Shown here one piece after another: positions 9,658 through 26,627 of a DNA stretch of 64,000 bases; position 1 is the first letter of the stretch; each line of letters begins with the position of its first letter. The notes beneath the pieces are model-generated. The model did no database searches. It had not been told where the DNA came from and saw only the letters and a list, made by a program, of their open reading frames with translations. Source of the DNA: Alphaproteobacteria bacterium (lineage in GTDB: Bacteria > Pseudomonadota > Alphaproteobacteria > Rhodospirillales > Casp-alpha2); the NCBI GenBank assembly GCA_024279135.1, contig JAJRRU010000039.1, positions 124,001 to 188,000 of the forward strand, read 5' to 3'. The position numbers were made by a program, and so were the translations under genes.

Positions 9658-9658
9658 A

Positions 9659-10948: not shown

Positions 10949-11258
10949 GGCGTCATCACACTTATATAATAGTGGAATAATTTCCAGATCCATGGATACT
11001 ATGGCACCCATACACCGGACAGTGTCAAGTGGATTGTCTATTATATTAAATGTTACTTACAGAAACTTTTCGCTTAACAGCCATAAAAATACAGTCAATT
11101 TTATAAGTAACATATTATTATTATTATATATTTATGATTTATTTGATCCATGAGCCGATACAAAATCCATCTTGAAGAATTTATTAGTTCATGATAATGT
11201 TAAAAATAATTAACACTTTCACAAAGACCTCATAGAAGATAAATACGGATTATCAATC
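10949..11258. promoter_or_regulatory. Divergent puuB / puuDA control region
   Basis: This 310-bp AT-rich gap has no convincing gene. It holds a PuuR-like box at 11033-11050, a perfect inverted repeat ATGTTACTTA (11050-11059) with TAAGTAACAT (11104-11113), and a smaller palindrome TGTTAA-N6-TTAACA at 11198-11215 about 43 bp before puuD. Both divergent promoters must lie here. Confidence 0.6.
11033..11050 (-). promoter_or_regulatory. Candidate PuuR-like operator, copy 1
   Basis: Plus-strand ATTGTCTATTATATTAAA matches the box at 15369-15386 upstream of the PuuR-like gene at 16 of 18 positions. On the complementary strand it reads TTTAATATAATAGACAAT, close to the E. coli PuuR recognition sequence as I recall it (AAAATATAATGAACA). 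It sits between the divergent puuB and puuD genes. Confidence 0.65.
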
Positions 11259-12023
11259 ATGAACACCACGCCAATCGTCGCGGTTTCCGCCTGCGTTAAA
11301 AGCATTAAGGATATCAATTTTCATGCCGTGGCAGATCGCTATCTGGCGGCGCTTGTTCAGGCTTCCGGCGTTAGCCCGATCATCCTGCCGGCCCAAGGTT
11401 ACGGTCTGCATACTGAAAATTTACTTGAGCTTTGCGACGGGTTGTTCCTGTCCGGTAGTCCATCCAATATCGAACCCCATCATTATGATGGCACACCCAG
11501 CATAGACGGCACGCTACACGATTCTTACCGCGACGCCACAATCCTGCCGTTGGTCCGTCACGCCATCGATACCGGCGTGCCTGTACTCGCAATTTGCCGG
11601 GGCTTTCAGGAAATGAATGTGGCTCTGGGCGGCACACTGCATCAACGCGTTCACGAGGTCGAGGGTTACACCGATCACAGGGCACCCGATATAAACAAGG
11701 GGTATGATATTTATTACGGGCTGTCACACGACGTTAATCTCACCCCGGGCGGCATGTTGGAAGCCATCGCCGGCTCTCCAAGCATCACCGTTAATTCCCT
11801 GCACAGTCAAGGTGTGGATCAATTGGCACCGGGGTTGGGGATAGAGGCTAGTGATCCCGACGGGTTGATCGAGGCTTTCCATGTTAAAGATGCCACGACC
11901 TTTGCGGTCGGGGTGCAATGGCATCCGGAATGGAAGGTCATGGAGAATACATTTTCACGCGCACTGTTTGGCGAGTTTGGGAAAGCCTGTAAGGACCGCG
12001 CAAAAACCAGGGCAACACAATGA
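11259..12023 (+). CDS. puuD: Gamma-glutamyl-gamma-aminobutyrate hydrolase
   Basis: 254 residues of the class I glutamine-amidotransferase-like peptidase C26 family. The nucleophile elbow is ICRGFQEMN with Cys113, and the His222/Glu224 pair lies in VQWHPEW; these form the catalytic triad. The SGSPSNIEPHHY loop is typical of PuuD. It releases GABA and glutamate from gamma-glutamyl-GABA in the cytosol, the last step of the gamma-glutamylated putrescine route. The stop overlaps the puuA start by four bases (ATGA), so the two are translationally coupled. Confidence 0.93.
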   Translation: MNTTPIVAVSACVKSIKDINFHAVADRYLAALVQASGVSPIILPAQGYGLHTENLLELCDGLFLSGSPSNIEPHHYDGTPSIDGTLHDSYRDATILPLVRHAIDTGVPVLAICRGFQEMNVALGGTLHQRVHEVEGYTDHRAPDINKGYDIYYGLSHDVNLTPGGMLEAIAGSPSITVNSLHSQGVDQLAPGLGIEASDPDGLIEAFHVKDATTFAVGVQWHPEWKVMENTFSRALFGEFGKACKDRAKTRATQ

Positions 12024-13378
12024 CAAAACCAAACCCAATTATTGATATGGCAACATGGTGCAAGCAACACCAGATTACCGAGGTGGAATGTCTGGTTCCA
12101 GACATGGCCAGCATTGCCCGGGGTAAAATTCTGACGGCGGATAAATTTCTCGAAGGCATCGAGTCCGACAGCCACCGCATCCCCGAAAGCATTTTTACCC
12201 AATCGGTTACCGGCGATTTCCCGGAAACCGATGGCTTGGTACCGTTGACCGACATAGACGTCATCATGCGCCCCGACGGTAATACGATCCGCCTGCTTCC
12301 GTGGCGCGATCATCCCGCCGCCCAGGTTATCTGTGATTGCCTTTATGCCGATAATACGCCGGTCGATTTATCGTCACGTCAGGTTTTGCGCGAAATCCTT
12401 GCCCTCTACGAAAACAAGGGTTGGAAACCAGTGGTCGCACCGGAAGTGGAAATGTATCTAGTGGCGATGAACTTCGACCCGCACGAAACACTGGAACCAC
12501 CAGTCGGTCGTTCAGGACGTCCGGAAACCGGACGCCAGGCTTTCGGCGTTGACGCTGCCAATGAATTCAACGCTCTTTTCAAAGACGTCTATGACTACTG
12601 CAAGGCGTCGCGTATCGACATCGATACGCTCAACCACGAATGCGGAGCCGCACAGATGGAGGTCAATCTGTTGCACGGCGAGCCTCTGGAACTGGCCGAC
12701 CAGGTCTTCCTGTTCAAACGCACCATGCGCCAGGCCGCAATCGAACATGACATCCATGCAACCTTCATGGCCAGACCCATGCAACACGAAGCGGGCAGCG
12801 CCCTGCACATCCATACCAGTCTTTACGATCAGGAAACCGGAGAGAACCTGTTTAGTCAGGGGCAGGAGTCCGACACCCCGTTATTTCTGTCGTTTATCGC
12901 CGGGTTGCAGACCTACGCACCCATGATGATGTCATTGTTTGCACCAACGGTTAATTCCTATCGCCGTTTTGTCTACAAAGAGGCCCCCATAAACACCCAT
13001 TGGGGTCGTGACAATCGCAGTTGCGGCCTGCGCGTACCCCACGCCAGCCCCAACAACAGGCGCATCGAAAACCGCCTGCCCGGCGCAGATGTCAATCCGT
13101 ACCTGGCCATGGCAGGCACCCTGGCCTGCGGTTATCTGGGCATGACAGAAGGGCTTACCGCGACGGCGAGCGAACAAGACAATGCCCTCGTTCTACCACG
13201 TAATCTGCCCGTATATTTGCCAAACGCCCTGGATAATTTTTCCGGCAATGACGCCGTGCGCAAAGTTCTCGGTGATCGTTTTGTGGATCTGTTCTGTATG
13301 ATCAAGCGCGATGAACTGGCGACTTTTAATCAGGTCATCACGTCCTGGGAACGCGAACACTTGTTATTGAATGTTTGA
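12020..13378 (+). CDS. puuA: Gamma-glutamylputrescine synthetase (glutamine synthetase family)
   Basis: 452 residues with the glutamine synthetase fold: a short N-terminal beta-grasp (ECLVPDMASIARGKIL, about residues 23-40) and the catalytic domain with metal/ATP residues in APEVEMYL, CGAAQMEVNLLHG and AGSALHIHTSLYD, then NRSCGLRVPHA and ENRLPGADVNPYLAMA. Length and motifs fit PuuA rather than the nitrogen-assimilating GlnA. It joins glutamate to putrescine with ATP, the first committed step. It overlaps puuD by four bases and is followed at once by the aminotransferase gene, in one operon. Confidence 0.93.
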   Translation: MTKPNPIIDMATWCKQHQITEVECLVPDMASIARGKILTADKFLEGIESDSHRIPESIFTQSVTGDFPETDGLVPLTDIDVIMRPDGNTIRLLPWRDHPAAQVICDCLYADNTPVDLSSRQVLREILALYENKGWKPVVAPEVEMYLVAMNFDPHETLEPPVGRSGRPETGRQAFGVDAANEFNALFKDVYDYCKASRIDIDTLNHECGAAQMEVNLLHGEPLELADQVFLFKRTMRQAAIEHDIHATFMARPMQHEAGSALHIHTSLYDQETGENLFSQGQESDTPLFLSFIAGLQTYAPMMMSLFAPTVNSYRRFVYKEAPINTHWGRDNRSCGLRVPHASPNNRRIENRLPGADVNPYLAMAGTLACGYLGMTEGLTATASEQDNALVLPRNLPVYLPNALDNFSGNDAVRKVLGDRFVDLFCMIKRDELATFNQVITSWEREHLLLNV

Positions 13379-13388
13379 GGAAAGGGGT

Positions 13389-14765
13389 ATGACAATGAAT
13401 GTAGCTCTCAACAGCACCAGCCAGTGGCAACAGGAAGATCGCGATCATCACCTGCACCCTTTTACCGACACCGCTGAATTAAACCAGAAAGGCGTGCGCA
13501 TTATCACCCGTGGCCAGGGTGTATACCTGTGGGATTCCGAGGGCAATAAATTGATCGATGGCATGGCCGGATTATGGTGTGTTAATCTGGGCTATGGCCG
13601 CAAGGAACTGGCCGATGTTGCCGCCCGCCAGATGAACGAACTTGCCTTTTACAATACCTTTTTTCAAACCACCAACATTCCAGCGACCTCGCTGGCGACG
13701 TTGCTATCGGAAGTTACGCCTGATGGTTTTAACCGGGTTTTTTATGGTAATTCTGGCTCGGAATCCAATGACACGGTTGTGCGCCTGATCTGGCGTTACT
13801 GGGACGTCAGGGAAAAACCCGGCAAAAAAACCATCATCAGCCGCAACAACGCCTACCACGGCAGCACCCTTGCCGGCGCCAGTCTCGGTGGCATGGGCTA
13901 CATGCACGAACAGGGCCCTTTGCCATTACCCGGTTTTGAGCACATTGAAGAGCCGAACTGGTACGTCAATGGTGGCGACCTCAGCCCCGATGAGTTTGGC
14001 CTTAAAGCAGCGCGGTGGCTGGAAGAAAAAATCCTTGAACTTGGTGCCGATAGCGTGGCGGCTTTCTTCGGCGAGCCAATCCAGGGTGCGGGCGGGGTTA
14101 TCGTGCCGCCTGATACCTACTGGCCGGAGATCCAGCGGATCTGTCGCAAGTACGATATTTTACTGGTTTCCGATGAAGTGATCTGTGGGTTTGGCCGGAC
14201 AGGTAATTGGTTCGGTTGTCAGACGTTCGGCTTTGAGCCTGATCTGATGACCATGGCAAAGGGCATGTCATCGGGTTATATCCCGATCTCCGGTGTGATG
14301 ATCCACGACCGTGTGGCCGATGTGCTTGAAGGCAGCGGCGAATTTAATCACGGTTACACCTATTGCGGACATCCGGTCGCCACAGCCGTGGCCCACGCCA
14401 ATATTTCGATCCTGCGCGACGAAGCCATCATCGAGCGGGTTAAAACCGATACCGGTCCCTATTTCCAAGAGATCTTGCGCAGCTTCGAAGATCACCCGCT
14501 GGTCGGGCAGGTTCGCGGCCGCGGTCTGATGGCAGCCATACAACTGGTCAAGGACAAGGCCAACCGCCAGGCCTTTGATGACGTGGGAAAAGCCGGTGCC
14601 ATGTGCCGCAACCATTGCAGCGACAACGGCATCATCATGCGCGCAACCGGAGACGCTATGTTGTTATCGCCGCCGCTGGTGATCACCCGACCCGAGATTG
14701 ATGAGCTTCTGGGCAGTGCGCGCAAAAGCCTGGACGCAACGGCCAGAGACCTCGGCATGATGTAA
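13389..14765 (+). CDS. spuC: Class III aminotransferase, putrescine-pyruvate aminotransferase (SpuC)-like
   Basis: 458 residues, PLP fold type I, class III. Lys291 (TMAKGMSSGYIP) is the Schiff-base lysine and Asp262 (VSDEVICGFGRTG) pairs with the pyridine nitrogen. The front HLHPFTDTAELNQKG and the NSGSESNDT loop are typical of SpuC and related omega-aminotransferases. It probably moves an amino group from putrescine, GABA or a related amine to pyruvate. ATG at 13389 is chosen because GAGGAAAGGGG ends just before it; an upstream ATG at 13371 would overlap puuA. Being last in the puuD-puuA operon, it may give a second, non-glutamylated route or remove GABA, as PuuE does. Confidence 0.87.
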   Translation: MTMNVALNSTSQWQQEDRDHHLHPFTDTAELNQKGVRIITRGQGVYLWDSEGNKLIDGMAGLWCVNLGYGRKELADVAARQMNELAFYNTFFQTTNIPATSLATLLSEVTPDGFNRVFYGNSGSESNDTVVRLIWRYWDVREKPGKKTIISRNNAYHGSTLAGASLGGMGYMHEQGPLPLPGFEHIEEPNWYVNGGDLSPDEFGLKAARWLEEKILELGADSVAAFFGEPIQGAGGVIVPPDTYWPEIQRICRKYDILLVSDEVICGFGRTGNWFGCQTFGFEPDLMTMAKGMSSGYIPISGVMIHDRVADVLEGSGEFNHGYTYCGHPVATAVAHANISILRDEAIIERVKTDTGPYFQEILRSFEDHPLVGQVRGRGLMAAIQLVKDKANRQAFDDVGKAGAMCRNHCSDNGIIMRATGDAMLLSPPLVITRPEIDELLGSARKSLDATARDLGMM

Positions 14766-14788
14766 AGCCCCGGTCAGAAATTCGGTGG

Positions 14789-15349
14789 TCAGAAGCTGGG
14801 TGGGGTTTCGGCGCTAATGATAATGGCATCACCCTTGCCGACATTCTTGAAACGGTGCGGTATATTATTGTTAATATAATACGAGTCACCTTCACCCAGC
14901 ACCCTACTGGCCTGTCCGACCGTCAGTTCAATCTGGCCTTTGATGATGATGCCCGCTTCTTCGCTGTCACACGAAAGCATATGCTCGCCCGAACTGGCAC
15001 CTTGCTCATAACGTTCATGCAGGAACCGCAGTTTACGGTCTTTACGATTGGCACCGACAAGCTTCAGATGGGCACCTTTCTCGAAGAACGACAACAAATC
15101 CTCCTTGGCAAAAAAGATATCGCCATCCTCTTCCACGTTCATGGTCAAAAATTCAACCAGCGAAAGAGAGAAGCTGTTCGAGATTTTTTTTATTGAGTCA
15201 ACCGAGGGACTCACCCTGCCTTGTTCTATCAGTGATATGGTACTGTTTGTAACACCGGAACGTTTCGCGACTTCCCGCTGAGACAGTTTATACATGGTGC
15301 GAAGGGCCTTGAGGCGGGTGCCAATCTCATTATCCAACACATTATTCAA
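14789..15349 (-). CDS. puuR: XRE-family regulator with C-terminal cupin domain, PuuR-like
   Basis: 186 residues when started at the TTG at 15349, very close to the length of E. coli PuuR (185). An N-terminal helix-turn-helix (LSQREVAKRSGVTNSTISLIEQGR, read in parts) is followed by a RmlC-type cupin (about residues 105-180, ending GDAIIISAETPPSF). AGGAAA lies six bases before this TTG; an earlier TTG at 15376 would add nine residues but has no ribosome-binding site and would place the start inside the operator. PuuR represses polyamine catabolism and is released by putrescine. The gene is convergent with spuC. A box matching the one in front of puuB/puuD lies just upstream, implying autoregulation. 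Confidence 0.85.
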   Translation of the reverse strand: MNNVLDNEIGTRLKALRTMYKLSQREVAKRSGVTNSTISLIEQGRVSPSVDSIKKISNSFSLSLVEFLTMNVEEDGDIFFAKEDLLSFFEKGAHLKLVGANRKDRKLRFLHERYEQGASSGEHMLSCDSEEAGIIIKGQIELTVGQASRVLGEGDSYYINNNIPHRFKNVGKGDAIIISAETPPSF

Positions 15350-15362
15350 CGGATTTCCTATA

Positions 15363-15388
15363 TGTTTAATCGTCAATTATATTAAACA
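15363..15388 (-). promoter_or_regulatory. Candidate PuuR-like operator, copy 2, in a palindrome
   Basis: TGTTTAAT-N10-ATTAAACA forms a perfect 8-bp inverted repeat. Inside it, 15369-15386 (ATCGTCAATTATATTAAA) matches the puuB/puuD box at 16 of 18 bases. It lies 14 bp upstream of the preferred start of the PuuR-like gene, where it would give autoregulation. Confidence 0.65.
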
Positions 15389-15487
15389 TAAACCCGCAAA
15401 AAACCAGTTAAATCGCAACAAAATCACATAATCGTAAATAATATTAGAGCGTTTCCGAGATATTATGGATCATTCTGATGGCGCAAA

Positions 15488-15916
15488 TTACTCCCTGACC
15501 ACAAGAACTGAGCAATTTGCATGACGCACAACACGAGCCGTATTCGGTCCTACCAGATAGTCTTGCATGGTTGGACGGTGCGATCCCATGATCACAAGAT
15601 CTATAACATTTTCGTTCGCGACACGCAGGATTTCCGCATAGGCATTGCCATGTCCTAAAACATGCTGGACCGGCACATCCGATGGTACATTTTCAGAAAC
15701 CCATTCCTGAAGCGCCTTCAAGGCCTGTTCGAGAGCATTTTTCTCAAAGTTTTCCGGGAAATATGAGCCGACGATGCTCATACCAAAATCCGGCACCACG
15801 GTCATGACATGTAGTGTGGAATCAAATGCCTTGGCATATTCGACTGCCGTGGGAAGAGATTTCGCCCAACTGTCATTATGCTGAAGATCAATAGCAAGCA
15901 GGATATGCTTATACAT
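15488..15916 (-). CDS. Universal stress protein, UspA family
   Basis: 142 residues beginning MYKHILLAIDLQHND, with the UspA alpha/beta fold and a C-terminal VMGSHRP...GPNTARVVRHANCSVLVVRE. The usual G-2x-G-9x-G(S/T) ATP loop is altered (GSHR), so ATP binding is doubtful. The ATG at 15916 is chosen because GGGGAG lies nine bases upstream; a longer frame adds 19 unlikely residues. Single-domain Usp proteins often accompany TRAP transporters, and the TAXI-TRAP genes start about 1 kb away on the other strand, but they do not share a transcript. Confidence 0.9.
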   Translation of the reverse strand: MYKHILLAIDLQHNDSWAKSLPTAVEYAKAFDSTLHVMTVVPDFGMSIVGSYFPENFEKNALEQALKALQEWVSENVPSDVPVQHVLGHGNAYAEILRVANENVIDLVIMGSHRPTMQDYLVGPNTARVVRHANCSVLVVRE

Positions 15917-16126
15917 TTTTTTTATCTCCCCGTTTATTTGTTGCATGTAAAGAAACAGTACCGGCGTCGGCAACCCTCAATATCTCTCAGTAACTCTACG
16001 ACCGATTAGTAACATAATGATGAAGCCAAAAAAACTAAAGCAGGAATATATATCTCAGAATTTACCGGTATACTTCATTGTTAACCACAGCCGGAAAACA
16101 TGACATGTGAGACATGTGAAACGGGT

Positions 16127-16533
16127 ATGATTGGACCATTGCCGATTAAAAATATTCTGACTCTTGGAATAACTGCTGTCGTTCTCGTTGCCTGTGTCGG
16201 ATTAAATACCCCCCAGTCCCAGTACCTTCTCGGTGCTGCCTACGCAGCGGTAAGAGGCCTGGCGACCGATCATTCCAAAGCCGTTGGTCTGTTCCTCAGT
16301 GCGGCGTCAATCTGACAACCCGCCATACGACGACCCACCGACGTTGCGCTACATACAAGACGTTACGCTACATACAAAGAGGGCTCATCAAGCTCGGATT
16401 TCTGAACGATAAAGATGACGGGCTGACTGGACCAAAAACCAACGCCGCCATCTTTATGATTTTTTGCATAGGCAACTTTGGACACGACACCGCCATCAAG
16501 AAAATCAAGTGCCAAAGGCATGACAACCAGTGA
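16127..16533 (+). pseudogene. Decayed lipoprotein gene: Sel1-like repeat plus peptidoglycan-binding remnant
   Basis: A short frame (16127-16315, or from an earlier ATG at 16100) encodes a lipoprotein signal with lipobox LVAC and then one Sel1-like repeat (QYLLGAAYAAVRGLATDHSK). It stops at 16313. About 40 bp later, in another frame, the sequence reads YIQRGLIKLGFLNDKDDGL and GPKTNAAI, a peptidoglycan-binding domain 1 core, ending at 16531-16533. In between is a 19-20-bp tandem duplication (16341-16359 and 16360-16379). The simplest reading is a Sel1/PG-binding lipoprotein gene that lost its middle repeats and frame. A functional 63-residue lipopeptide cannot be excluded. Confidence 0.55.
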
Positions 16534-16882
16534 TGGTGGTCGCACACAATACCACAAACAGCTTGCCAGTCCTGGTACGGGCAATTGGGGTATTCATAAT
16601 AATAATGTCTCCTGCATCACGAAGGTTAGAAATACTATCACAAAAACACCCTACTGTTGAATCTTGTCTGTGATTTTCATCACTCCGCAAGAAACAAACT
16701 GAAATTTATATAGAAAAACTAGTCCCGTCACATTTTACAAAAAAGATTACATTAATAATATAAATAATTATTTTTTGGCCTAGTCCGCAAGAATGTGCTT
16801 ATATTCTTTTGCAGATTTTGATATTGAAATTAAGATCTGAAAACAAATATAAAGTTAGTGTTAAATTTTAAGGGAGAGAATT
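16534..16882. other. Non-coding AT-rich gap before the TAXI-TRAP operon
   Basis: I see no credible gene here. The first 100 bp still have moderate GC and may be further decayed sequence. From about 16700 it is strongly AT-rich and should contain the promoter of the transporter operon, but no clear -35/-10 pair stands out. Confidence 0.5.
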
Positions 16883-17866
16883 GTGAACATTAAATCATTT
16901 TCTAAGCTAGCGGGCATGACTGCTGCTGTGATTATGGGTGCATCTTTTGCAACCATGGACAGTCAGGCTGCTGAGCAACAGTTTATTTCCATCGGTACTG
17001 GTGGTGTGACTGGGGTGTATTATCCGACCGGTGGTGCGATCTGCCGCCTGGTTAATAAAACCCGCAAAGAAACCGGCATTCGTTGCTCTGCTGAGTCTAC
17101 CGGTGGTTCCATTTACAACATCAACACAATTCGCGCAGGCGAACTTGAATTTGGTGTTGCCCAATCTGACTGGCAGTTCCATGCCTACAATGGTACATCC
17201 AAATTCAAGGATCAGGGCAAGTTTTCCAAGCTGCGGGCCGTATTTTCCGTCCACGCCGAGCCCGTTACCATTATTGCCAGTGACCGCTCCGGCATCAAAA
17301 ACATCACCGATCTCAAGGGCACACGCATGAACATCGGCAACGCCGGTTCGGGCACCCGTGGCACCTGGGAAGTCATCGAAGAAGCTTTGGGCTGGAAACG
17401 CTCCGATCTGAAACTGGCCGCTGAAATGAAATCGGCAGAAACCGGTCAGGCCGTCTGTGATGGCAAAATCGATGCCTACTTCTGGCTCGTTGGTCATCCT
17501 TCAGCCCTGACTCAGGAATCTCTGGCATCTTGTGACGCCCACCTGGTGAATGCCACAGGTTCGGCAATTGACAAACTCGTTGCCGACAATCCCTATTACC
17601 GTGTCGCGACTATTCCTGCCGGTATGTACAACAACGACAAAGACGTCATGACATTTGGCGTCGGTGCAACCTTCGTCAGCAGCTCTGATGTTCCCGACAA
17701 GGTTGTTTATACCGTGGTTAAAGCTGTGTTTGATAATTTCGATGCTTTCAAAAAGCTTCATCCCGCATTTGCCAATCTCACAGAAAAGCAGATGATTACA
17801 GATAGTCTGTCCGCTCCATTGCATGATGGTGCCGTAAAATACTACAAAGAACGCGGCTGGATGTAA
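16883..17866 (+). CDS. TAXI-family TRAP transporter solute-binding protein
   Basis: 327 residues. A signal peptide (about 1-29, ending DSQA-AEQQ) is followed by the TAXI signature GTGGVTGVYYPTGGAICRLV and STGGSIYNINTIRAGELEFG, with GNAGSGTRGTWEV in the middle. TAXI proteins are periplasmic receptors for a fused TRAP membrane unit, and most have unknown ligands. GTG at 16883 follows AGGGAGAG at good spacing. A strong terminator-like hairpin follows the gene and separates it from the membrane component, which would keep the receptor in excess. The operon neighbours point to a sulfur-containing amino-acid-like ligand, which is inference. Confidence 0.94.
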   Translation: MNIKSFSKLAGMTAAVIMGASFATMDSQAAEQQFISIGTGGVTGVYYPTGGAICRLVNKTRKETGIRCSAESTGGSIYNINTIRAGELEFGVAQSDWQFHAYNGTSKFKDQGKFSKLRAVFSVHAEPVTIIASDRSGIKNITDLKGTRMNIGNAGSGTRGTWEVIEEALGWKRSDLKLAAEMKSAETGQAVCDGKIDAYFWLVGHPSALTQESLASCDAHLVNATGSAIDKLVADNPYYRVATIPAGMYNNDKDVMTFGVGATFVSSSDVPDKVVYTVVKAVFDNFDAFKKLHPAFANLTEKQMITDSLSAPLHDGAVKYYKERGWM

Positions 17867-17878
17867 GATAAAAATCGA

Positions 17879-17916
17879 GGCAGGGTGTTTGTGAAAACAC
17901 CCTGCCTTATTTTTTA
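17879..17916 (+). terminator. Rho-independent terminator or attenuator after TAXI receptor gene
   Basis: A perfect 12-bp stem GGCAGGGTGTTT / AAACACCCTGCC (17879-17890 and 17895-17906) with a GTGA loop is followed by TTATTTTTT. It lies between the receptor and the TRAP membrane gene, 13 bp after the stop codon, so it probably lets only part of the transcription continue. Confidence 0.85.
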
Positions 17917-18003
17917 TCTAAATTTAAATTCAAAAAAATCAAAAAATAATAATGGGATATAGTGTCACAGCCTGAACAAGGCTGAAAGCAGGAGGGAATT
18001 ATC

Positions 18004-20631
18004 GTGAGCACGGAATCTACAGCCAAAAAAGTCCAGGAAATGGTCGACAATATTGACTCCGGAGGACGCACGCCCAAAGGGTGGCAAGGCCGTATGATCC
18101 TGACGACCGCCTTTACCTGGGCTTTGTTTCAGCTATACATAGCCTCCAATCTTCCGTTTATTCTGACGGAATATATTGGCATAAATGTGATTGTAACACT
18201 TTCGGCTGCCCGTCTCATTCACCTGGCATTTGCTTTATTCCTCGCCGCGATGGCATTCCCGCTGACCAAGAACTGCCCGAAGGATCATATCCCGTGGTAT
18301 GACTGGGGGCTCGGCCTGCTTGGCGTGGCGTCGTGTCTTTATATTGTTATCCTGCGCAATGAAATTGCCGAACGGGCCGGTCTGCCAACCACTGGCGACC
18401 TGATCACGGCAACCATCGGTATGGTCGTTCTTGGTACAGCCGTATACCGCGCGCTCGGTCTGCCACTGGTCATCGTTGCCAGCGTCTTTGTGATGTACGT
18501 ATTTTTCGGTCACTCAAATTACCTGCCGGACGCCGTTATGTGGAAAGGCGCATCTTACGGCAAGGCCATGTGGCATTTCTGGATGCAGGAAGAAGGCGTC
18601 TTCGGGGTCGCACTGCGTGTCTCTACCGGCCTGATATTCCTGTTCGTTCTGTTTGGCTCCGTGCTCGAAAAAGCCGGTGCCGGTAATTTCTTTATCAAGA
18701 TAGCCTTTGCCCTGTTGGGTCACTTCCGGGGTGGACCTGCCAAGGCGGCAGTCATCGCATCGGCCCTGAGCGGCCTCTATTCAGGCTCATCCATTGCCAA
18801 CACGGTGACCACCGGTACGTTTACGATTCCGCTGATGAAAAAAACCGAGTTCTCAGCCGAAAAAGCCGGAGCCATTGAAGTCGCGTCTTCCACAAACGGG
18901 CAATTAACCCCGCCCGTCATGGGTGCAGCGGCCTTCCTGATCGCCGAGTTCACCGGTATCGCCTATACGGATATTATCATCCACGCGCTGGTTCCAGCCC
19001 TGGTATCTTATATTGCCCTGTTCTACATCGTGCACCTTGAAGCCCTGAAAATGGACCTTAAAGGGTTGAAAAAACCCACCTCCACCATGACATTTGCCAC
19101 CAAGGTAATTTCTTTCCTTGGCGGATTTATCGGCATTGCCCTCATCGGCGCGTTTGTCTATTACGGCATGGGCTGGATCAAGGATGTGGCTTACGAAGCG
19201 GCTTTCCCCATCGTCGTCGTTGGCTGTACGCTGGCGTACCTCTTTCTGGCCCGTATTGCAGCCAGACACCCGGACCTTGTCATCGATGATCCCGATGCCC
19301 CGGTTATGGAATTGCCCAGAGCCGGGGAAACGGCCATTACGGGTCTCTATTACATTCTGCCCATCGTTATCCTGATCTGGAGCATTATGATCGAGCGCCT
19401 GTCGCCAGGACTGGCGGCGTTTTGGGCAACCATAGCCATGATGATTGTTGCCATCACCCAACACCCCCTGAAAGCCTATTTCCGGGGTGAAACGAACTGG
19501 AGTGCCGGTTTTTCACGTGGCCTTCGTGAATGCAAGGAAGGCATGATTGCCGGTTCACGCAACATGATCGGCATCGGTGTGGCGACGGGTGTGGCGGGCA
19601 TTATTGTCGGTACAGTCTCACTGACCGGCGCCCATCAGATTGTCGGTGAATTCATCGAATTCCTGTCCGGTGGCAACCTGATGGTCATGCTTGTGCTCGT
19701 TGCACTCATGAGTCTGGTGCTGGGCATGGGGCTTCCGACAACGGCAAACTACATCGTTGTTTCTTCCTTGATGGCACCGGTTATTCTGGCCCTGAGCGCC
19801 AAAAGTGGGCTGATTATTCCGCTGATTGCGGTTCACCTGTTTGTGTTCTATTTCGGTATTCTGGCCGACGACACACCACCCGTGGGCCTGGCGGCATTTG
19901 CCGCGGCGGCCATATCCGGCGGCGATCCCATCAAAACCGGTATTCAGGGTTTCATGTACGATATCAGGACAGCCCTGTTGCCGTTCCTGTTCATCTTCAA
20001 TACGGACCTGCTGTTGATCGAGGTCTCGCCCCTGAAGGGTATATTCGTGTTCTTCACGGCCGTGCTCGCCATGTTATTATTCGCTTCGGCGACACAAGGT
20101 TATATGTTTGTGAAGAACAGGCTTTGGGAATCGGCCCTGTTATTGTTGATCGCCTTTACCATGTTCAGGCCGGGATATTGGCTCGACAAGGTTTCTCCAC
20201 CTTATAATGCAATAGACCCGACGAAGGTCTATGAGTTCATCGATACAGTACCGGCGGGTGACACCATGACCATTGTGGTCAGCGGCCCGGATTTCGATAC
20301 CAGCGAGATGACCTCCACAACCCTGCTCATTCCCCTGTCTCGCCCCGGTGACGCAGCAGAACGTCTACGTTCTGCCGGGTTGACGGTTATCGTCGATGGC
20401 GGTGTAACGATCGTCGACGAACCCATGCAGAGCTCACCATTCTTCAAAAACATTGGCTCTTTGTTTGATTTTTATGCTGATACACCGGTGACCATTTCAC
20501 AAGTCAATGAAAAGGCCGACCGTATGCCGAAAGAACTGTTCTACATTCCGGCGCTGCTCGTGCTCGGGCTGGTCGTCGTGGGACAGCGCAGACGCTTGCG
20601 GATCGAAGACGCTGCCAAGGCGGCGGCATAA
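18004..20631 (+). CDS. TRAP transporter, fused 4TM/12TM membrane protein (TAXI type)
   Basis: 875 residues with the small (DctQ-like, about 1-170) and large (DctM-like, about 200-680) TRAP subunits in one chain, then two more hydrophobic stretches and a C-terminal soluble segment like DUF3394 (about 690-860). Typical blocks are LSGLYSGSSIANTVTTG, EVASSTNGQLTPPVMG, LGMGLPTTANYIVVSS and ILADDTPPVGLAAFAAAA. It uses a cation gradient to import the solute carried by the TAXI protein upstream. The start is a GTG preceded by CAGGAGGG. The gene is followed 57 bp later by the PLP lyase gene, implying that the lyase acts on the imported compound. Confidence 0.94.
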   Translation: MSTESTAKKVQEMVDNIDSGGRTPKGWQGRMILTTAFTWALFQLYIASNLPFILTEYIGINVIVTLSAARLIHLAFALFLAAMAFPLTKNCPKDHIPWYDWGLGLLGVASCLYIVILRNEIAERAGLPTTGDLITATIGMVVLGTAVYRALGLPLVIVASVFVMYVFFGHSNYLPDAVMWKGASYGKAMWHFWMQEEGVFGVALRVSTGLIFLFVLFGSVLEKAGAGNFFIKIAFALLGHFRGGPAKAAVIASALSGLYSGSSIANTVTTGTFTIPLMKKTEFSAEKAGAIEVASSTNGQLTPPVMGAAAFLIAEFTGIAYTDIIIHALVPALVSYIALFYIVHLEALKMDLKGLKKPTSTMTFATKVISFLGGFIGIALIGAFVYYGMGWIKDVAYEAAFPIVVVGCTLAYLFLARIAARHPDLVIDDPDAPVMELPRAGETAITGLYYILPIVILIWSIMIERLSPGLAAFWATIAMMIVAITQHPLKAYFRGETNWSAGFSRGLRECKEGMIAGSRNMIGIGVATGVAGIIVGTVSLTGAHQIVGEFIEFLSGGNLMVMLVLVALMSLVLGMGLPTTANYIVVSSLMAPVILALSAKSGLIIPLIAVHLFVFYFGILADDTPPVGLAAFAAAAISGGDPIKTGIQGFMYDIRTALLPFLFIFNTDLLLIEVSPLKGIFVFFTAVLAMLLFASATQGYMFVKNRLWESALLLLIAFTMFRPGYWLDKVSPPYNAIDPTKVYEFIDTVPAGDTMTIVVSGPDFDTSEMTSTTLLIPLSRPGDAAERLRSAGLTVIVDGGVTIVDEPMQSSPFFKNIGSLFDFYADTPVTISQVNEKADRMPKELFYIPALLVLGLVVVGQRRRLRIEDAAKAAA

Positions 20632-20688
20632 CAAGGCAAAACTGACCATGCTATCAACTGAATTACGGATAAGGGTGTGTAAACGACT

Positions 20689-21738
20689 ATGCTGATTGGA
20701 AAACTGGATGATCTTCCGCGTTCTATATTAGCGCACACCCCCACCCCGGTTGATGAAATGCCAAATCTGGCCAAATTTGTCGAAGCCGAGCGTGCCTCGG
20801 GCGCGTGCCGCCTCTATGCCAAGCGCGATGATTGCACCGGGCTTGGTATGGGCGGCAACAAAATCCGCCAGCTTGAATTCTATATAGGTGAAGCAGTCGC
20901 CAGAGATGCCGATACCATCCTGATCACCGGGGCCGTTCAGTCAAATTTTGTCCGCTCGGCAGCCGCCGCAGCCCGCAAGGCAGGCATGGATTGTCATATC
21001 CAGCTGGAAGAACGTGTCGCCAACCCATCGTCGCAATACCGGCGTTCGGGAAATGTATTGCTCGACAGAATACTGGGGGCAACCCTGCATTCCTTCCCGG
21101 AAGGCGAAAACGAAGCCGGGGCTGATCGTGCCCTGGAAGATATTGCCGGAGGCTTGCGCGCCAAAGGAAGAACCCCTTATATCATTCACCTGGGTCCTGG
21201 TCATCCACCGCTTGGCGCTTTGGGGTATGTTGTTGCGGCGCGTGAAATCTTCGGCCAGATCAATGAAACTGATCTGAATATCCATGAAATCGTTGTTGCC
21301 TCGGGCAGTGGTGCGACACATGCTGGCCTGCTCTTCGGTCTGCGCGCACTGGGTTGTGATATCCCTGTAAAAGGCATCTGTGTGCGCCGCGCAAAAGATC
21401 AGCAAACCCCGCGTATCATTAACCGGTGTCAGGAAGTTGCCGACATGCTGGACATGGACAACCCGGTGAGAAACGAAGATATCGAGATCAACGATGACGT
21501 GCTTGCGCCGGGATACGGCAAGATCAATGATGCTGTTTTGCACGCTATCAAGGCGGCAGCTCACTGCGAAGGCATTATCCTGGACCCTGTTTACACCGGA
21601 CGCACCATGGCCGGATTTCTGTCCCGTGCTCGTCAGGCTAAAGCCGGACAGAACCTGATGTTCATTCATACCGGCGGACAACCGGCAGTATTCGGATATG
21701 AGGACGTCCTGGGGCCTATGTTAAGCAGTTCTCTATAA
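20689..21738 (+). CDS. PLP-dependent lyase of the D-cysteine desulfhydrase / L-cysteate sulfo-lyase (CuyA) family
   Basis: 349 residues, tryptophan-synthase-beta fold, related to ACC deaminase. The PLP lysine is Lys58 in GMGGNKIRQLEF, the conserved loop is GAVQSNFVRSAAAAARKAG, and a late TGGQPAVFGY loop binds phosphate. The family includes D-cysteine desulfhydrase, which forms pyruvate, ammonia and sulfide, and CuyA, which cleaves L-cysteate to pyruvate, ammonia and sulfite. The next gene encodes a TauE/SafE-type exporter, and known cuyA genes sit with such sulfite exporters, so I favour cysteate sulfo-lyase. The sequence alone does not prove the substrate. It is cotranscribed with the TAXI-TRAP importer. 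Confidence 0.85.
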   Translation: MLIGKLDDLPRSILAHTPTPVDEMPNLAKFVEAERASGACRLYAKRDDCTGLGMGGNKIRQLEFYIGEAVARDADTILITGAVQSNFVRSAAAAARKAGMDCHIQLEERVANPSSQYRRSGNVLLDRILGATLHSFPEGENEAGADRALEDIAGGLRAKGRTPYIIHLGPGHPPLGALGYVVAAREIFGQINETDLNIHEIVVASGSGATHAGLLFGLRALGCDIPVKGICVRRAKDQQTPRIINRCQEVADMLDMDNPVRNEDIEINDDVLAPGYGKINDAVLHAIKAAAHCEGIILDPVYTGRTMAGFLSRARQAKAGQNLMFIHTGGQPAVFGYEDVLGPMLSSSL

Positions 21739-21743
21739 AAAAA

Positions 21744-22487
21744 ATGGTAACGATCGCGAGCGACCCCACGCTATATCTGGTTTTATTGATTGCCGGGGCT
21801 TTCGCCGCCGCATTTGTCATAGGAGCCGTGGGGTTTGCCGACGCATTGATTTTAAACGCTGTCTGGCTGCATATTATGGACCCCGCCGCCGCCATTCCGC
21901 TGGTGGTGGCCTGTGGCCTCATGATGCATGTAACGCCGCTCTATAAACTGCGCAAAACCCTGGATTTCTCCAGATTAATGCCTTTCATATGGGGCGGCAT
22001 CGTTGGTGTCCCCATGGGGGTCTGGATATTGGGTTATATAGAGCCAGGCATATTCCGCAGTGTTATTGGCGGCTTGCTTGTTGGATATGGCCTGTGGATG
22101 TTGCTCCGCCCCCATACGACCGTGGGCCAGGTCGGTGGTCGAAAACTTGATGGACTGGTTGGGCTTGGCGGTGGTGTCATGGGCGGGTTCGCCGGACTGT
22201 CCGGCCTGCTGCCGACCTTGTGGAGTGGTATTCGCGGCTGGCCGCGTAACACCCAGCGCGGCACCTACCAGCCCTTCGTTCTGGTCATGCATGGTTTGGG
22301 CATTGCCGTGTTCGCCCTCAACGGCATGATAACGGAACGAACAATATATGACTTCCTGTGGTGCCTGCCAGCGGTTATAATTGGCTCACGTCTGGGCGTC
22401 CAGGTTTACCCTTACCTGAACGATGCCCTGTTCAAGCGGATCATTCTCGGGCTTATATTGCTATCGGGCATTACGCTGCTGATTTAG
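21744..22487 (+). CDS. TSUP (TauE/SafE) family membrane exporter
   Basis: 247 residues, about eight hydrophobic helices, with the two-repeat TauE/SafE layout (GAFAAAFVIGAVGFADALIL at the front, GGGVMGGFAGLSGLLPTLW in the second repeat). The family moves sulfite, sulfoacetate and other anions across the inner membrane. It begins six bases after the lyase stop with only an A-rich leader, so translation is probably coupled. Sulfite export would match desulfonation of a sulfonate by the upstream lyase; this is inferred from context. Confidence 0.88.
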   Translation: MVTIASDPTLYLVLLIAGAFAAAFVIGAVGFADALILNAVWLHIMDPAAAIPLVVACGLMMHVTPLYKLRKTLDFSRLMPFIWGGIVGVPMGVWILGYIEPGIFRSVIGGLLVGYGLWMLLRPHTTVGQVGGRKLDGLVGLGGGVMGGFAGLSGLLPTLWSGIRGWPRNTQRGTYQPFVLVMHGLGIAVFALNGMITERTIYDFLWCLPAVIIGSRLGVQVYPYLNDALFKRIILGLILLSGITLLI

Positions 22488-22500
22488 GATAAGACGTTCC

Positions 22501-23382
22501 ATGCCATTGAATTATGACATGCCGCTGTACCGGCCACCAAGCGAGGGCAACAACCTGATCATTCAGGCAACGCTGGGCTGTTCGGCCAACACCTGTACCT
22601 TTTGTTCCATGTATAAGAGTAAATCCTACAGGGCGCGCCCACTGGATCAGGTATTTGCCGATATTGAAACCGCCGCCAGGGCCTGGCCCCAGGCCCACCG
22701 GATTTTTCTGGCCGATGGTGACGCGCTGACCCTGCCCATGGAAAGCCTGCGGGCCATTCTCGGAAAACTGGCGGCAACTTTCCCCAACCTAAGCCGGGTG
22801 TCGGCCTATGCCACACCGAAAAATCTGATAGATAAAAGCTGTGAGGAATTGAGGGAACTGAAAGAAAACAAACTTTCCCTGGTCTATCTTGGTGTGGAGT
22901 CGGGATCAAACACGGTCCTTAAACGTACCATCAAGGGTGCCAGCCAGAAAACCCTGACCATGGCCCTGTCAAACGCGACCCGGGCCGGATTGAAGGTTTC
23001 CGCTACGGTCATTCTGGGGCTTGCGGGAAAACATGGCTGGGAAGACCATATTACGGCCACAGCCGCCTTGATAAACCAGGCCCCGCCCACATACCTGTCG
23101 ACCTTGCAGCTTAATCTGGAACAAGGCACCTATGACGAGTTCATGGACCGTCAGGAACCTGATTTCACCTTTCAGGATGACCTGGGTATTCTGGATGAAC
23201 AGGAACGCCTGATCAGCCTGTTGGCTCCGCCCCGCCCAGTGATTTTCAGGTCCAACCACGCCTCAAACTGTCTGGCACTGGCGGGCAACCTGCCGCGTGA
23301 TATGGATAAATTATTAGCCCAGATTGCACACGCCAAACAACAAGGCGATCTGTTGCGACCACATTACCTGCGCGGATTATAA
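22501..23382 (+). CDS. Radical SAM protein of unknown function
   Basis: 293 residues with a C-x4-C-x2-C cluster, GCSANTCTFCSMYK (about residues 24-37), which binds the 4Fe-4S cluster that splits S-adenosylmethionine. Further blocks, FLADGDALTLP and LVYLGVESGSNTVLKR, match the Elp3/MiaB-like radical SAM barrel, and VILGLAGKHGWEDH is in the usual place. There is no obvious second cofactor domain. TAGGATAAG precedes the ATG. It is 13 bp after the TSUP exporter gene in the same operon, so it may act on the imported compound, yet no substrate can be named. I do not recognise a characterised orthologue. Confidence 0.9.
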   Translation: MPLNYDMPLYRPPSEGNNLIIQATLGCSANTCTFCSMYKSKSYRARPLDQVFADIETAARAWPQAHRIFLADGDALTLPMESLRAILGKLAATFPNLSRVSAYATPKNLIDKSCEELRELKENKLSLVYLGVESGSNTVLKRTIKGASQKTLTMALSNATRAGLKVSATVILGLAGKHGWEDHITATAALINQAPPTYLSTLQLNLEQGTYDEFMDRQEPDFTFQDDLGILDEQERLISLLAPPRPVIFRSNHASNCLALAGNLPRDMDKLLAQIAHAKQQGDLLRPHYLRGL

Positions 23383-23386
23383 ACGC

Positions 23387-24334
23387 TTACCGGGGAGCAT
23401 TGCGCAGGGTAGCGAACATCAAAGCACCGATCACCACGACCATGCCGATATATTGAACGGGCTCAAGAAATTCAGCGAACAATATCATCGCCAACAAGGT
23501 GACGACCAACGGTTCCAGATTAGACAGGGTCGAGGCAGTAACCGGGTTTGTCAGCTTAACCGCAAAGACCAGCATGATGGTCCCAAAGCCATAAAAAACC
23601 CCGGATATACCCGCGGCCAGCCAGCCTGTTGAATCAACGGGGAACATGAACTCGCCGAACAACCAGGCCGCCGCAAGCAAGACAATGACATTAAGCGAAT
23701 TGACATAAACGGTCAGAACCAATCCGTTGGTTTCAGCCATAATCTTCGGCAACTTCAGCATATACAAGGCCACCCCCAAAGCCGCGACGATCCCGGCTGC
23801 AAGACCTTGCCATTGCAGGTCATTCAAAGAGGGCGCCAGGACAATACCAAGGCCCACAAAAGCAGTCAGGCAAATCATTGTACGCCGAATACCGGGGAAC
23901 CGGCGCTCACTAAACGAACCGATGATGAGAATAATCAACGGGAACAGATAAAACGTCAGCGATGCTATACTGGCCGGCACATATTTCATGGCCGTGGGAT
24001 AGCCAAAGGCAATCATTAAAAACAGCAAGGTTACCGGCAGAACCTCGCTGCGAACCGAGCGGGGCAAACGCCACAGGGTGCCTAAATAAATAGCCATGCT
24101 GCCGGAAATAATTACCGACGAGATAGCCCGCACGACGGCAAATGTTGTGGGCGACATGCCATGCTCATAGGTTATCTTGGCCGGGATAATGCTGAAAGCG
24201 AAGAATGTTGCAGCCATCAAACACAAAAGTATCCCCAGCTTGCTGATACCCCCCAGACCGCCGGGATGTTCAACAGAACCGGAAACCGTTGATACCTCAG
24301 CCGACCGATCCTGCTCCAACCTTTCGTCCATCAT
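23387..24334 (-). CDS. DMT superfamily (EamA) permease
   Basis: About 315 residues and ten predicted membrane helices in two EamA halves (ILLCLMAATFFAFSIIPAKI early; GISGVFYGFGTIMLVFAVKL and LSNLEPLVVTLLAMILFAE late). Such proteins export or exchange amino acids, nucleotides or other metabolites; the substrate here is unknown. The start at 24334 (MMDERLEQ) is chosen because an upstream extension would run into the rhodanese gene. It is 31 bp after that gene on the same strand, and convergent with the radical SAM gene. Confidence 0.88.
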   Translation of the reverse strand: MMDERLEQDRSAEVSTVSGSVEHPGGLGGISKLGILLCLMAATFFAFSIIPAKITYEHGMSPTTFAVVRAISSVIISGSMAIYLGTLWRLPRSVRSEVLPVTLLFLMIAFGYPTAMKYVPASIASLTFYLFPLIILIIGSFSERRFPGIRRTMICLTAFVGLGIVLAPSLNDLQWQGLAAGIVAALGVALYMLKLPKIMAETNGLVLTVYVNSLNVIVLLAAAWLFGEFMFPVDSTGWLAAGISGVFYGFGTIMLVFAVKLTNPVTASTLSNLEPLVVTLLAMILFAEFLEPVQYIGMVVVIGALMFATLRNAPR

Positions 24335-24365
24335 GGCCCCCAAAAAGTCATGCCCTTTTAGTAAC

Positions 24366-24818
24366 TTATTTGCTGACAGGATACCCGGCAGCAATCCAGC
24401 CCATAATCCCGCCGACCACATTATAGATACCGCTATAACCATCTTGCTGGGACAGCAGGCTGGCAATTCGCGAAGAACGTGCTCCGGAACGACAGATTAG
24501 AACCACACGCTGATCAGGCTTAATTTTTTCATGAAAGGTCTGGCGGAAATTATCAACCAGTTTGCCACGGGCATCAAACGCCGTCAGCTTGATGCTGCCG
24601 TCAATCACGCCTGTCGCGTCCCATTCATCCTGACGTCTGAGGTCAACAATCGTGACACCTTCGCCATATAGTTTTTTAAGATCGCTCGCCGATATATTCG
24701 TTATCTTCTGGGCTGTTTGAGCATAAGCCACACCAGCGGATGACGCCACGAATGCCATACTGGTCCAACCGAACAGAACCACCAAAAAACTTGCAATAAA
24801 AACTGATTTATACGTCAT
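24366..24818 (-). CDS. Exported rhodanese-domain protein
   Basis: About 150 residues: a signal peptide or membrane anchor (hydrophobic FIASFLVVLFGWTSMAFVASS, cleaved near AYA-QTAQ) and one rhodanese domain. The active-site loop is CRSGARS, with the catalytic cysteine in VVLICRSGARSSR and the CH2A motif DLRRQDEWDATG. It probably handles persulfide or thiosulfate sulfur in the periplasm. The ATG at 24818 has GAGTGG upstream; an ATG at 24836 is an alternative. Its partner is unclear, although the nearby lyase and exporter genes also handle sulfur. Confidence 0.86.
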   Translation of the reverse strand: MTYKSVFIASFLVVLFGWTSMAFVASSAGVAYAQTAQKITNISASDLKKLYGEGVTIVDLRRQDEWDATGVIDGSIKLTAFDARGKLVDNFRQTFHEKIKPDQRVVLICRSGARSSRIASLLSQQDGYSGIYNVVGGIMGWIAAGYPVSK

Positions 24819-25034
24819 CAAGAACCACTCAATCATCTGTTATATGTCATACTGTTGATCCTGTAAGGTGGCTATTTCTAGCCCATAAATCAACCGAAAT
24901 CTCACACCATATCATAGTCCTGTACCATCACATTTCCGCGATAAAAAAACTTAATAATTGCCTTGTGTCCGGGAACCATACGACGATACTTTCAGAACCG
25001 TCACACTTTACCCCTAATTGACAGGAGCTTTTCG

Positions 25035-26627
25035 TTGCGCGACTTTACAAAATCAGGCCGGTCCACCGTACATGCCATGAATGGGATGGTCGCAACGTCA
25101 CACCCTCTGGCCACCAGTGCGGCCAATGAAACCTTACGCAACGGAGGCAACGCCCTGGACGCCGCCATCTGCGCCAGTGCCGTATTGTGCGTGGTCGAAC
25201 CCCAGTCCACCGGCATCGGTGGGGATTGTTTTATCCTGATGGCTAACAACGGCAGCGACAAAGTGATTGGTTACAATGGCTCGGGCCGCTCTCCGGCGGC
25301 CGCCACCCTGGATTATTTTCGCGGGCTGGGGCTGGACGAATTCCAGTCAGACAGTATTCATGCCATCACCATGCCCGGTGCTATCGATGCCTGGCTGAAC
25401 ACCCACAAAGATCATGGCCGTATGGACATGGCCGATATTCTGGCACCGGCCATTGACTTTGCCCACAAGGGTTACCCCATCCATTGCCGGGTCGGCTCAG
25501 ACTGGGCGCGTCATCTGGATCGTCTGCAAAAAGACGCCGATACGGCGGCCATATTCCTGCCCGGCGGCAAGCCCCCCCGAGAAGGCGACGTGCACACCCA
25601 ACCCCGACTGGGCGATACCTTGCAATCCATCGTCCGGCACGGACGCGAAGGTTTCTACGAAGGCCCGGTTGGCGAGGCTATGATCGCCACCCTGCAAGCC
25701 AAGGGCGGCGTCCATAGCCTGGCTGATTTAAACGCAGTCCGCGGCCAATACGTAAAACCCATCACCACCACCTATCGCGGATACACGGTGCACCAGATAC
25801 CGCCCAACAATCAGGGCCTGACCGCACTGATCATGCTCAATATCCTGGAAGGCTTCGATCTGGCCCGCTATGAGCCCTTATCGGTTGAGCGGACCCATCT
25901 GGAAATCGAAGCCGGGCGGCTGGCTTTCAAGGCCCGTAACGAGACCATGGCCGATCTGGAGCATATGACAATCAGCGTAGAGACCATGTTGTCAAAAGAC
26001 TGGGCCGCGGATCTTCGAGCCCAGATCAGCCTGGACCATGCCATGACTGATCTGCCCGATCTGGGGCTAACGACCTCAGATACCATCTACATCAGCGTGG
26101 TCGACCAGGATCGTAACGCGGTGAGCTTTATCAATTCCATTTTTACAGCCTTCGGCAGTGGCATCATGTGTCCCCATACCGGGGTGATGTTCCAAAACCG
26201 TGGTAAATCATTCCAGTTCGACCCTGCCCACCCCAACTGCATCGCGCCCAACAAACGCCCCATGCACACCATCATGCCCGGTATGCTGAGCCGGGACGGC
26301 AACGTCATCATGCCCTACGGTGTGATGGGTGGGGATTACCAGCCCTATGGCCACACGCGCCTTTTGACCAACATCATTGACTACGCCATGGACCCGCAAA
26401 GTGCGCTGGATATGCCGCGGGTATTTGGCATGGGTAATGTGGTTGAAATTGAGCGCAGCCTGCCTGATGAAACGGTGCAGGGCCTGATCCAGCGCGGCCA
26501 CACTATCGACTATGTGGATCAAGCTTCGCCCCACGGCGGTGGACAGGCCATCCTGATCGACCATGAACGCGGCATCCTGTCGGGTGGCTCCGACCCGCGC
26601 AAAGACGGCTGTGCGCTCGGGTTTTAG
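25035..26627 (+). CDS. Gamma-glutamyltransferase family protein
   Basis: 530 residues from a TTG start at 25035, chosen because CAGGAG sits seven bases upstream; a longer frame back to 24963 lacks a site and adds unconserved residues. The N-terminal part (VATSHPLATSAANETLRNGGNALDAA, read in parts) and IGGDCFILM are family typical. The self-cleavage threonine is Thr350 in DTIYISVVDQDRNAVSF. No signal peptide is seen, unlike exported GGT of E. coli, so a cytoplasmic location resembling YwrD-type proteins is likely. It cleaves gamma-glutamyl bonds, perhaps in glutathione or gamma-glutamylated amines. A divergent rhodanese gene and a convergent GST gene flank it. Confidence 0.9.
   Translation: MRDFTKSGRSTVHAMNGMVATSHPLATSAANETLRNGGNALDAAICASAVLCVVEPQSTGIGGDCFILMANNGSDKVIGYNGSGRSPAAATLDYFRGLGLDEFQSDSIHAITMPGAIDAWLNTHKDHGRMDMADILAPAIDFAHKGYPIHCRVGSDWARHLDRLQKDADTAAIFLPGGKPPREGDVHTQPRLGDTLQSIVRHGREGFYEGPVGEAMIATLQAKGGVHSLADLNAVRGQYVKPITTTYRGYTVHQIPPNNQGLTALIMLNILEGFDLARYEPLSVERTHLEIEAGRLAFKARNETMADLEHMTISVETMLSKDWAADLRAQISLDHAMTDLPDLGLTTSDTIYISVVDQDRNAVSFINSIFTAFGSGIMCPHTGVMFQNRGKSFQFDPAHPNCIAPNKRPMHTIMPGMLSRDGNVIMPYGVMGGDYQPYGHTRLLTNIIDYAMDPQSALDMPRVFGMGNVVEIERSLPDETVQGLIQRGHTIDYVDQASPHGGGQAILIDHERGILSGGSDPRKDGCALGF

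Follow-up and report, generated by a model that had tools for sequence, protein, structure and literature searches.

The question raised by this locus is whether a transporter, a lyase, an exporter and a radical SAM enzyme encoded side by side serve a single pathway and, if so, for which compound. The five genes lie on one strand within a 64,000-nucleotide stretch (hereafter the window) of contig JAJRRU010000039.1 from an alphaproteobacterium of the Rhodospirillales, and encode a TAXI solute-binding protein, a fused TRAP permease, a pyridoxal phosphate (PLP) dependent lyase, a TauE/SafE (TSUP) protein and a radical SAM protein. Open reading frames (ORFs) and domain matches agree with the positions and families given in a first-pass annotation of the same DNA, and the family assignments of all five are matches far beyond chance. 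Successive genes are separated by 137, 57, 5 and 13 bases, a spacing that makes co-transcription as one operon plausible. The first four genes probably constitute an import, cleavage and export module, of which the substrate, its stereochemistry, the product and co-transcription are all predicted.

In the proposed scheme, genes 16883-22487 would together serve the breakdown of an acidic amino acid that bears a sulfur oxyanion. Acidic amino acids would be captured in the periplasm by the TAXI protein and carried inward by the TRAP permease of the DUF3394 type, the PLP lyase would beta-eliminate its substrate to 2-aminoacrylate and on to pyruvate and ammonia, and the TauE/SafE protein would export the sulfur oxyanion released; the range of the importer is maybe broader than that of the lyase. 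That the module acts on an amino acid of this kind, for instance cysteate (the sulfonate isostere of aspartate), is proposed tentatively, with somewhat less than even confidence. L- or D-cysteate, yielding sulfite, would be the likeliest lyase substrate, with S-sulfocysteine, serine O-sulfate and cysteine sulfinate as close alternatives.

The lyase was compared with its characterized relatives by model scores, phylogeny and motifs. The best NCBIfam model for the window lyase was NF052482 (CuyA), which it matched at 355.4 bits without reaching the cut-off of 450, compared with 553 bits for Ruegeria pomeroyi CuyA and 525-553 bits for three passing CuyA proteins. Salmonella DcyD scored 400 bits on the same model, above the window lyase, and the model name is therefore no proof of substrate; the CuyA name was rejected as substrate evidence on these scores. 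The NCBIfam DcyD models were not passed either (276, 243 and 242 bits against cut-offs of 429, 610 and 469, respectively). In a tree of 115 proteins, built by a quick method and rooted for drawing only, the window lyase and 105 relatives formed a clade apart from nine rows representing CuyA, DcyD, 7ysk and 1-aminocyclopropane-1-carboxylate (ACC) deaminase, with a separating branch of length 0.47 and a Shimodaira-Hasegawa-like approximate likelihood ratio (SH-aLRT) support of 100. A loop reading QSNF in the window lyase is QSNF or QSNY in 96 of the 105 relatives (69 F, 27 Y; 6 H, 1 L, 1 T and 1 unread), whereas the matching loop is QSNH in R. pomeroyi CuyA and DcyD and QSNQ in ACC deaminase. 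The fold family is shared with DcyD and ACC deaminase, as is the GGNK context of the predicted PLP lysine, K58.

A D-cysteine desulfhydrase or ACC deaminase activity, yielding sulfide or a keto acid beside an unrelated exporter, is improbable for the lyase. Although the superfamily is the same and the Tyr-Thr and His-Thr positions of the window lyase agree with D-cysteine desulfhydrase, the clade is split from DcyD, ACC deaminase and CuyA with the full support given above, and such an activity would leave the exporter linkage described below unexplained. Furthermore, the Glu of VYEGK and the Leu of HLGG in ACC deaminase (1rqx), residues with a role in that enzyme, are both Thr in the window lyase (VYTGR, HTGG). 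Tree and cut-offs thus place the window lyase outside the CuyA, D-cysteine desulfhydrase and ACC deaminase groups, in a separate, strongly supported clade. The first-pass label of CuyA/D-cysteine desulfhydrase-like holds at the superfamily level, and the protein falls outside both named groups. It was the single match to the lyase family in the window genome at an E-value cut-off of 0.001.

Gene neighbourhoods were compared across 105 lyase loci (110 found minus five exact duplicates; 16, 3, 80 and 6 by source), with genes called as the longest open frame in genomes of which many are drafts. Eighty of the loci are the best 80 of a contig scan and seven Ruegeria loci repeat each other, so the counts are those of a sample. 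Using a TSUP profile built from the neighbourhood cluster and the window protein, a same-strand TSUP gene was found within 1.5 kb of the lyase in 38 of the 105 loci, with one further match 2.2 kb off; among the 85 loci having at least 1.5 kb of flank on both sides, 33 carried one nearby. The pairing of lyase and anion exporter put forward in the first-pass annotation is supported as a recurrent same-strand neighbourhood. Among the five nearest tree relatives of the window lyase, a TauE gene whose product is 68-78% identical lies directly 3' of the lyase in three (L105, L108 and L186), while L106 ends too soon to tell and L107 is without TauE. The order permease-lyase-TauE is retained in L105 and, with a permease remnant, in L186. 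The remnant (L186:9337-9993, genome G097) is only the C-terminal part of the permease, no TAXI gene is present in that stretch, and a proline-racemase-family gene follows TauE in the place of the radical SAM gene.

The importer was also found near the lyase, less often. A clear TAXI gene lay within 6 kb in 14 of the 105 loci, seven of them close Ruegeria relatives; the TAXI cluster comprised 17 loci, from which L070, L072 and L077 were set aside as distant or fragment matches. A fused TRAP gene was near 16 lyases, including two loci cut by contig ends (L066 and L105) and the remnant in L186. TAXI proteins 80-83% identical to that of the window occurred near the lyase, in differing gene orders, in metagenome-assembled genomes labelled as Gammaproteobacteria (L112), Arenicellales (L123) and Amylibacter (L169), all three reached from the lyase side. 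In genome G015, the contig with a TAXI gene (80% identical product) breaks off within the permease gene (L187), and a second contig (L066) carries the permease end, TSUP and the lyase; these two contigs may join.

The binding protein and the fused DctQM permease both score above curated cut-offs, which identifies the pair as a TAXI-TRAP transporter. The first-pass annotation had remarked that TAXI receptors rarely have known ligands, which fails here. Among solved structures the closest to the window protein is VcGluP from Vibrio cholerae (8s4j/9ibo; E 4e-124 for 8s4j), which binds L-glutamate and is identical at 180 of 294 aligned residues (61%). According to the accessible text of PMC11574862, VcGluP binds L-glutamate at 65 nM and shows no thermal shift with aspartate, mutation of Y45 or Q93 to Ala lowers affinity 213-fold and 990-fold, respectively, and the DUF3394 domain of the VcGluQM permease forms a claw. 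By domain scan the window permease has the same architecture. All four headgroup contacts (Y45, S75, Q93 and E125) are present in the window protein, as are V44, Y46, H123, G156 and G203, but the pocket differs from VcGluP at four positions (S40G, D157T, Y200W and M201L), which points to a conserved amino-acid headgroup site in an otherwise altered pocket. High-affinity binding of L-glutamate by the window protein is uncertain, as Y200W and M201L cast doubt on it. The Vibrio genes also differ in setting, VcGluP being placed beside argR, mdh and uspA, and not a lyase (PMC11574862). The combination Gly40, Thr157, Trp200 and Leu201, common to L112, L123, L169 and L187, was considered as a lyase-specific signature and rejected as not exclusive, since it also occurs in L194, L196, L202, L205 and L208, beside a class III aminotransferase.

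How far the importer and lyase belong together was also checked by starting from the importer. Among 385 genomes of the class, seven besides that of the window carried a TAXI protein at least 75% identical and 11 carried the lyase (E 1e-90); two (G359 and G531) had both, on different contigs. Together with the scores of the window lyase and DcyD on the CuyA model, several of the results weigh against the proposed sulfur-oxyanion module. None of the seven control TAXI loci had a lyase beside the close TAXI orthologue, flanks being short in L237 and L243, and six of the seven proteins carry the exact pocket residues of the window protein. One of the seven (L239) has an N-formylglutamate amidohydrolase gene two genes from the permease, which hints at glutamate. 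Five of the 11 control lyase loci were fetched, and contained TSUP in one, TAXI in none and the radical SAM gene in none. In the larger sample, 52 of the 85 well-flanked lyase loci are without TSUP nearby, and the Ruegeria TAXI proteins are without Q93 and H123. Finally, VcGluP was unresponsive to aspartate, which matches cysteate in length (PMC11574862, accessible text). Exclusive dedication of the TAXI protein to the lyase, as first read from L112, L123 and L169, was rejected on the importer-side result. The pairing recurs without being constant, and what the TAXI protein binds may be glutamate, or acidic amino acids generally; of the link suggested in the first-pass annotation, recurrence is supported. 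This control reduced confidence in the sulfur-oxyanion module from evenly balanced to tentative and in the broader proposal given below from possible to doubtful, and raised a glutamate importer from improbable to merely unlikely.

In that last alternative, the TAXI-TRAP system would import glutamate, or acidic amino acids generally, as in Vibrio, and would share little function with the lyase. The identity to VcGluP with its headgroup contacts kept, the 0/7 control and the amidohydrolase in L239 are in its favor, as are TAXI relatives that adjoin class III aminotransferase and Usp genes in L195-L199. Against it stand the recurrence of TAXI or fused TRAP genes, variously arranged, around lyase genes of both alpha- and gammaproteobacteria and the permease-lyase-TauE order in L105 and L186, and it is considered unlikely. 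Other neighbours of the importer were noted. One of the seven control TAXI loci adjoins a class III aminotransferase gene, and in L237:9007-9927 and L239:9026-10099 a gene of the PF01212 beta-eliminating-lyase fold (threonine aldolase type, by eye) lies 5' of TAXI, a hint that the ligand is an amino acid. TAXI relatives (65-80% identical) adjoin class III aminotransferase genes in L195:5880-9293, L169:10139-17337 and L125:2332-8868, along with a beta-keto acid cleavage (BKACE) gene that is Pfam-confirmed in L195 and, in L169 and L125, recognized by eye. Such loci suggest that a beta-amino acid, e.g. beta-glutamate, is taken up and degraded.

Evidence pointing the sulfur-oxyanion module towards cysteate comes from genes near other members of the lyase clade. 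In L112, the new lyase lies side by side with an Asp/Glu racemase gene and a CuyA that passes its cut-off (524.6 bits); the Ruegeria lyase loci contain TAXI, TRAP, a flavin adenine dinucleotide (FAD) oxidoreductase, Asp/Glu racemase, TSUP and lyase genes, with RidA in some; and in Paracoccus aminophilus a CuyA above cut-off is followed by a racemase gene. The accessible text of PMC11382572 describes CuyA as preferring D-cysteate and the racemase CuyB as interconverting the enantiomers, and gives CuyB of R. pomeroyi as unknown. Three loci combine the new lyase with a CuyA-like gene, which is adjacent in L158, less than 1 kb away in L112 and about 8 kb off in L153; the substrates of the two enzymes may thus be related without being the same. 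No racemase gene is present beside the module in the window.

Alternatively, the lyase could act on another beta-substituted alanine of glutamate length, such as S-sulfocysteine (releasing thiosulfate) or serine O-sulfate (releasing sulfate), with TauE exporting the anion. VcGluP, the TAXI relative, prefers glutamate over the shorter aspartate, and TauE/SafE proteins export several small anions (PMC10413263, accessible text), whereas the CuyA and racemase genes near some of the new lyases point to cysteate; this alternative is rather unlikely.

Further genes of the window genome also count in favor of the module. An Xsc above cut-off (956.6 bits, cut-off 676.4) lies beside acetate kinase, and a trio of molybdopterin subunit, iron-sulfur subunit and DmsC anchor is named SoeABC-like by resemblance; consequently, the organism probably degrades C2 sulfonates and may oxidise sulfite. 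Contig C28 encodes one Asp/Glu-racemase-family protein, of PRK07475 type. In that region (L236, G000:C28:48000-60000), the SoeABC-like trio is followed by the racemase-family gene, a regulator (GntR by eye), a thiamine pyrophosphate enzyme, an FAD oxidoreductase of D-amino acid dehydrogenase type and a DctP TRAP protein, a set that might be a second amino-sulfonate route. A PF04295 match on contig C24, tried as SuyB, lies among genes that look sugar-acid-like by eye and was not counted.

One of the closest known systems is that of CuyA and CuyZ in R. pomeroyi DSS-3 (SPOA0157-0159), in which a PLP lyase of the same superfamily also directly adjoins an anion exporter in a marine alphaproteobacterial setting. 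Unlike that system, the window lyase, 42% identical to R. pomeroyi CuyA, belongs to another clade, the window exporter is TauE whereas a PF03601 protein follows R. pomeroyi cuyA, and a TAXI-TRAP importer adjoins the window lyase, in contrast to cuyTUVW (SPO3040-3043), the cysteate importer tested in DSS-3 (PMC10130141). According to that paper, cuyTUVW is exclusive to R. pomeroyi, or almost so, within the Roseobacter genomes it surveyed. Near cuyA on the R. pomeroyi megaplasmid (L185:1142-5720; 182941-187519) is a set of TAXI, fused TRAP and FAD oxidoreductase genes that is 58-79% identical to its counterpart in the Ruegeria lyase operon but lacks lyase, racemase and TSUP genes. No paper linking TAXI-TRAP to cysteate or to a QSN-F/Y lyase was found in the open-access literature searched, which is no proof of absence. 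A broader proposal, doubtful at present, is that the QSN-aromatic lyases are an uncharacterised group whose substrate would be an acidic amino acid other than the one CuyA prefers, e.g. L-cysteate, from which they would release sulfite, thiosulfate or sulfate. The TAXI-TRAP system serving such a lyase here would be the first known to import a sulfonated amino acid, an import route in many marine bacteria beyond cuyTUVW.

A gap of 13 bases separates the exporter gene from the radical SAM gene, which follows it on that strand, and the first-pass annotation had suggested that its product might act on the imported compound. That suggestion did not survive comparison: the gene was beside the lyase in none of the 105 lyase loci, and lyase, TAXI, TRAP or TSUP genes were found at none of 26 other radical SAM loci. 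The annotation had itself put forward absence from homologous operons as counting against its idea, and absence is what was found. In a survey of 248 genomes of the order, 88 carried the radical SAM gene (E 1e-60), 43 the lyase (E 1e-90) and five both (G000, G013, G097, G098 and G142), with the two on the same contig only in the genome of the window. About 15 co-occurrences would be expected if the genes were independent, a deficit due in part to kinship and subject to the strict lyase cut-off. Among 61 relatives, a close radical SAM gene co-occurred with a lyase-family gene in four more genomes, each time on separate contigs (G006, G020, G026 and G042, the last with a 40%-identical family member only). 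Genome G001, of the same genus and 78% complete, retains a radical SAM gene (77% identical product) in the window order with DMT, rhodanese and gamma-glutamyltransferase genes, and its 8,910-base contig contains no lyase, TAXI or TauE gene. The CX4CX2C motif was present in the window protein and all 23 relatives checked, and the profile gave six general matches in PDB (best E 3e-13). A step on the imported compound is therefore very improbable, and the protein was rejected as a pathway member; it belongs to a group without assigned function and is almost certainly a chance neighbour from another neighbourhood.

The features of the locus are collected in the table.

Table. Features in and around the predicted module (window positions; the five genes of the run as in the ORF list).
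Feature	Position	Strand	Evidence or remark
UspA-family protein, possible accessory	15488..15973	-	Pfam Usp; divergent from module; weak evidence in window
TAXI solute-binding protein, VcGluP type, GTG start	16883..17866	+	TRAP_TAXI TIGR02122, 337.5 bits (cut-off 84.35)
Terminator-like hairpin between binding-protein and permease genes	17877..17908	+	14 pairs and T-rich tail
Fused TRAP permease (DctQM), C-terminal DUF3394 claw, GTG start	18004..20631	+	TRAP_fused TIGR02123, 601.4 bits (cut-off 320.65)
PLP lyase, D-cysteine desulfhydrase family, QSNF clade	20689..21738	+	PALP; best model NF052482 CuyA
TauE/SafE (TSUP) anion exporter, predicted	21744..22487	+	TauE PF01925, 94 bits (cut-off 32.6)
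Radical SAM protein, CX4CX2C motif; judged outside module	22501..23382	+	Radical_SAM PF04055, 54.5 bits (cut-off 29.5)
DMT (EamA) transporter; in block kept beside radical SAM gene in same-genus genome	23387..24466	-	Domain scan and locus comparison
Rhodanese-domain protein; block shared with DMT and radical SAM gene	24366..24836	-	Domain scan and locus comparison
Gamma-glutamyltransferase; block shared with DMT, rhodanese and radical SAM gene	24963..26627	+	Domain scan and locus comparison

The hairpin between the TAXI and permease genes has a folding energy of -26.7 kcal/mol. Hairpins of -19 kcal/mol or stronger, of differing sequence, occupy this gap in 22 of 23 other TAXI-TRAP loci, each value being the best of many sub-windows with no shuffle control and seven of the loci being close Ruegeria relatives. 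An excess of binding protein is a common arrangement in such operons, and the gap hairpin may maintain such an excess over the permease. No Rfam family reached its gathering score in window positions 13000-25000. Usp genes are found near the lyase and TAXI-TRAP genes in L112, L125, L169 and L174, and an association of TRAP systems with UspA is pointed out in the accessible text of PMC11574862. Upstream, window positions 8680-15376 contain a cluster resembling one for putrescine breakdown, with a class III aminotransferase (PRK07480) and a PuuR-like regulator identified by scan and agmatinase-like, FAD oxidoreductase, glutamine amidotransferase and glutamine synthetase-like genes recognized by eye.

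In the sea, carbon and sulfur are exchanged in part as cysteate and related sulfonates. Leaving the radical SAM gene out of the pathway avoids a false lead. If the proposal is true, the label of D-cysteine desulfhydrase family currently carried by plasmid members of the lyase clade would be corrected, and the TAXI protein might gain a ligand other than glutamate. Furthermore, the new lyase clade, with TauE and in some lineages TAXI-TRAP, would represent a more general cysteate route than cuyTUVW.

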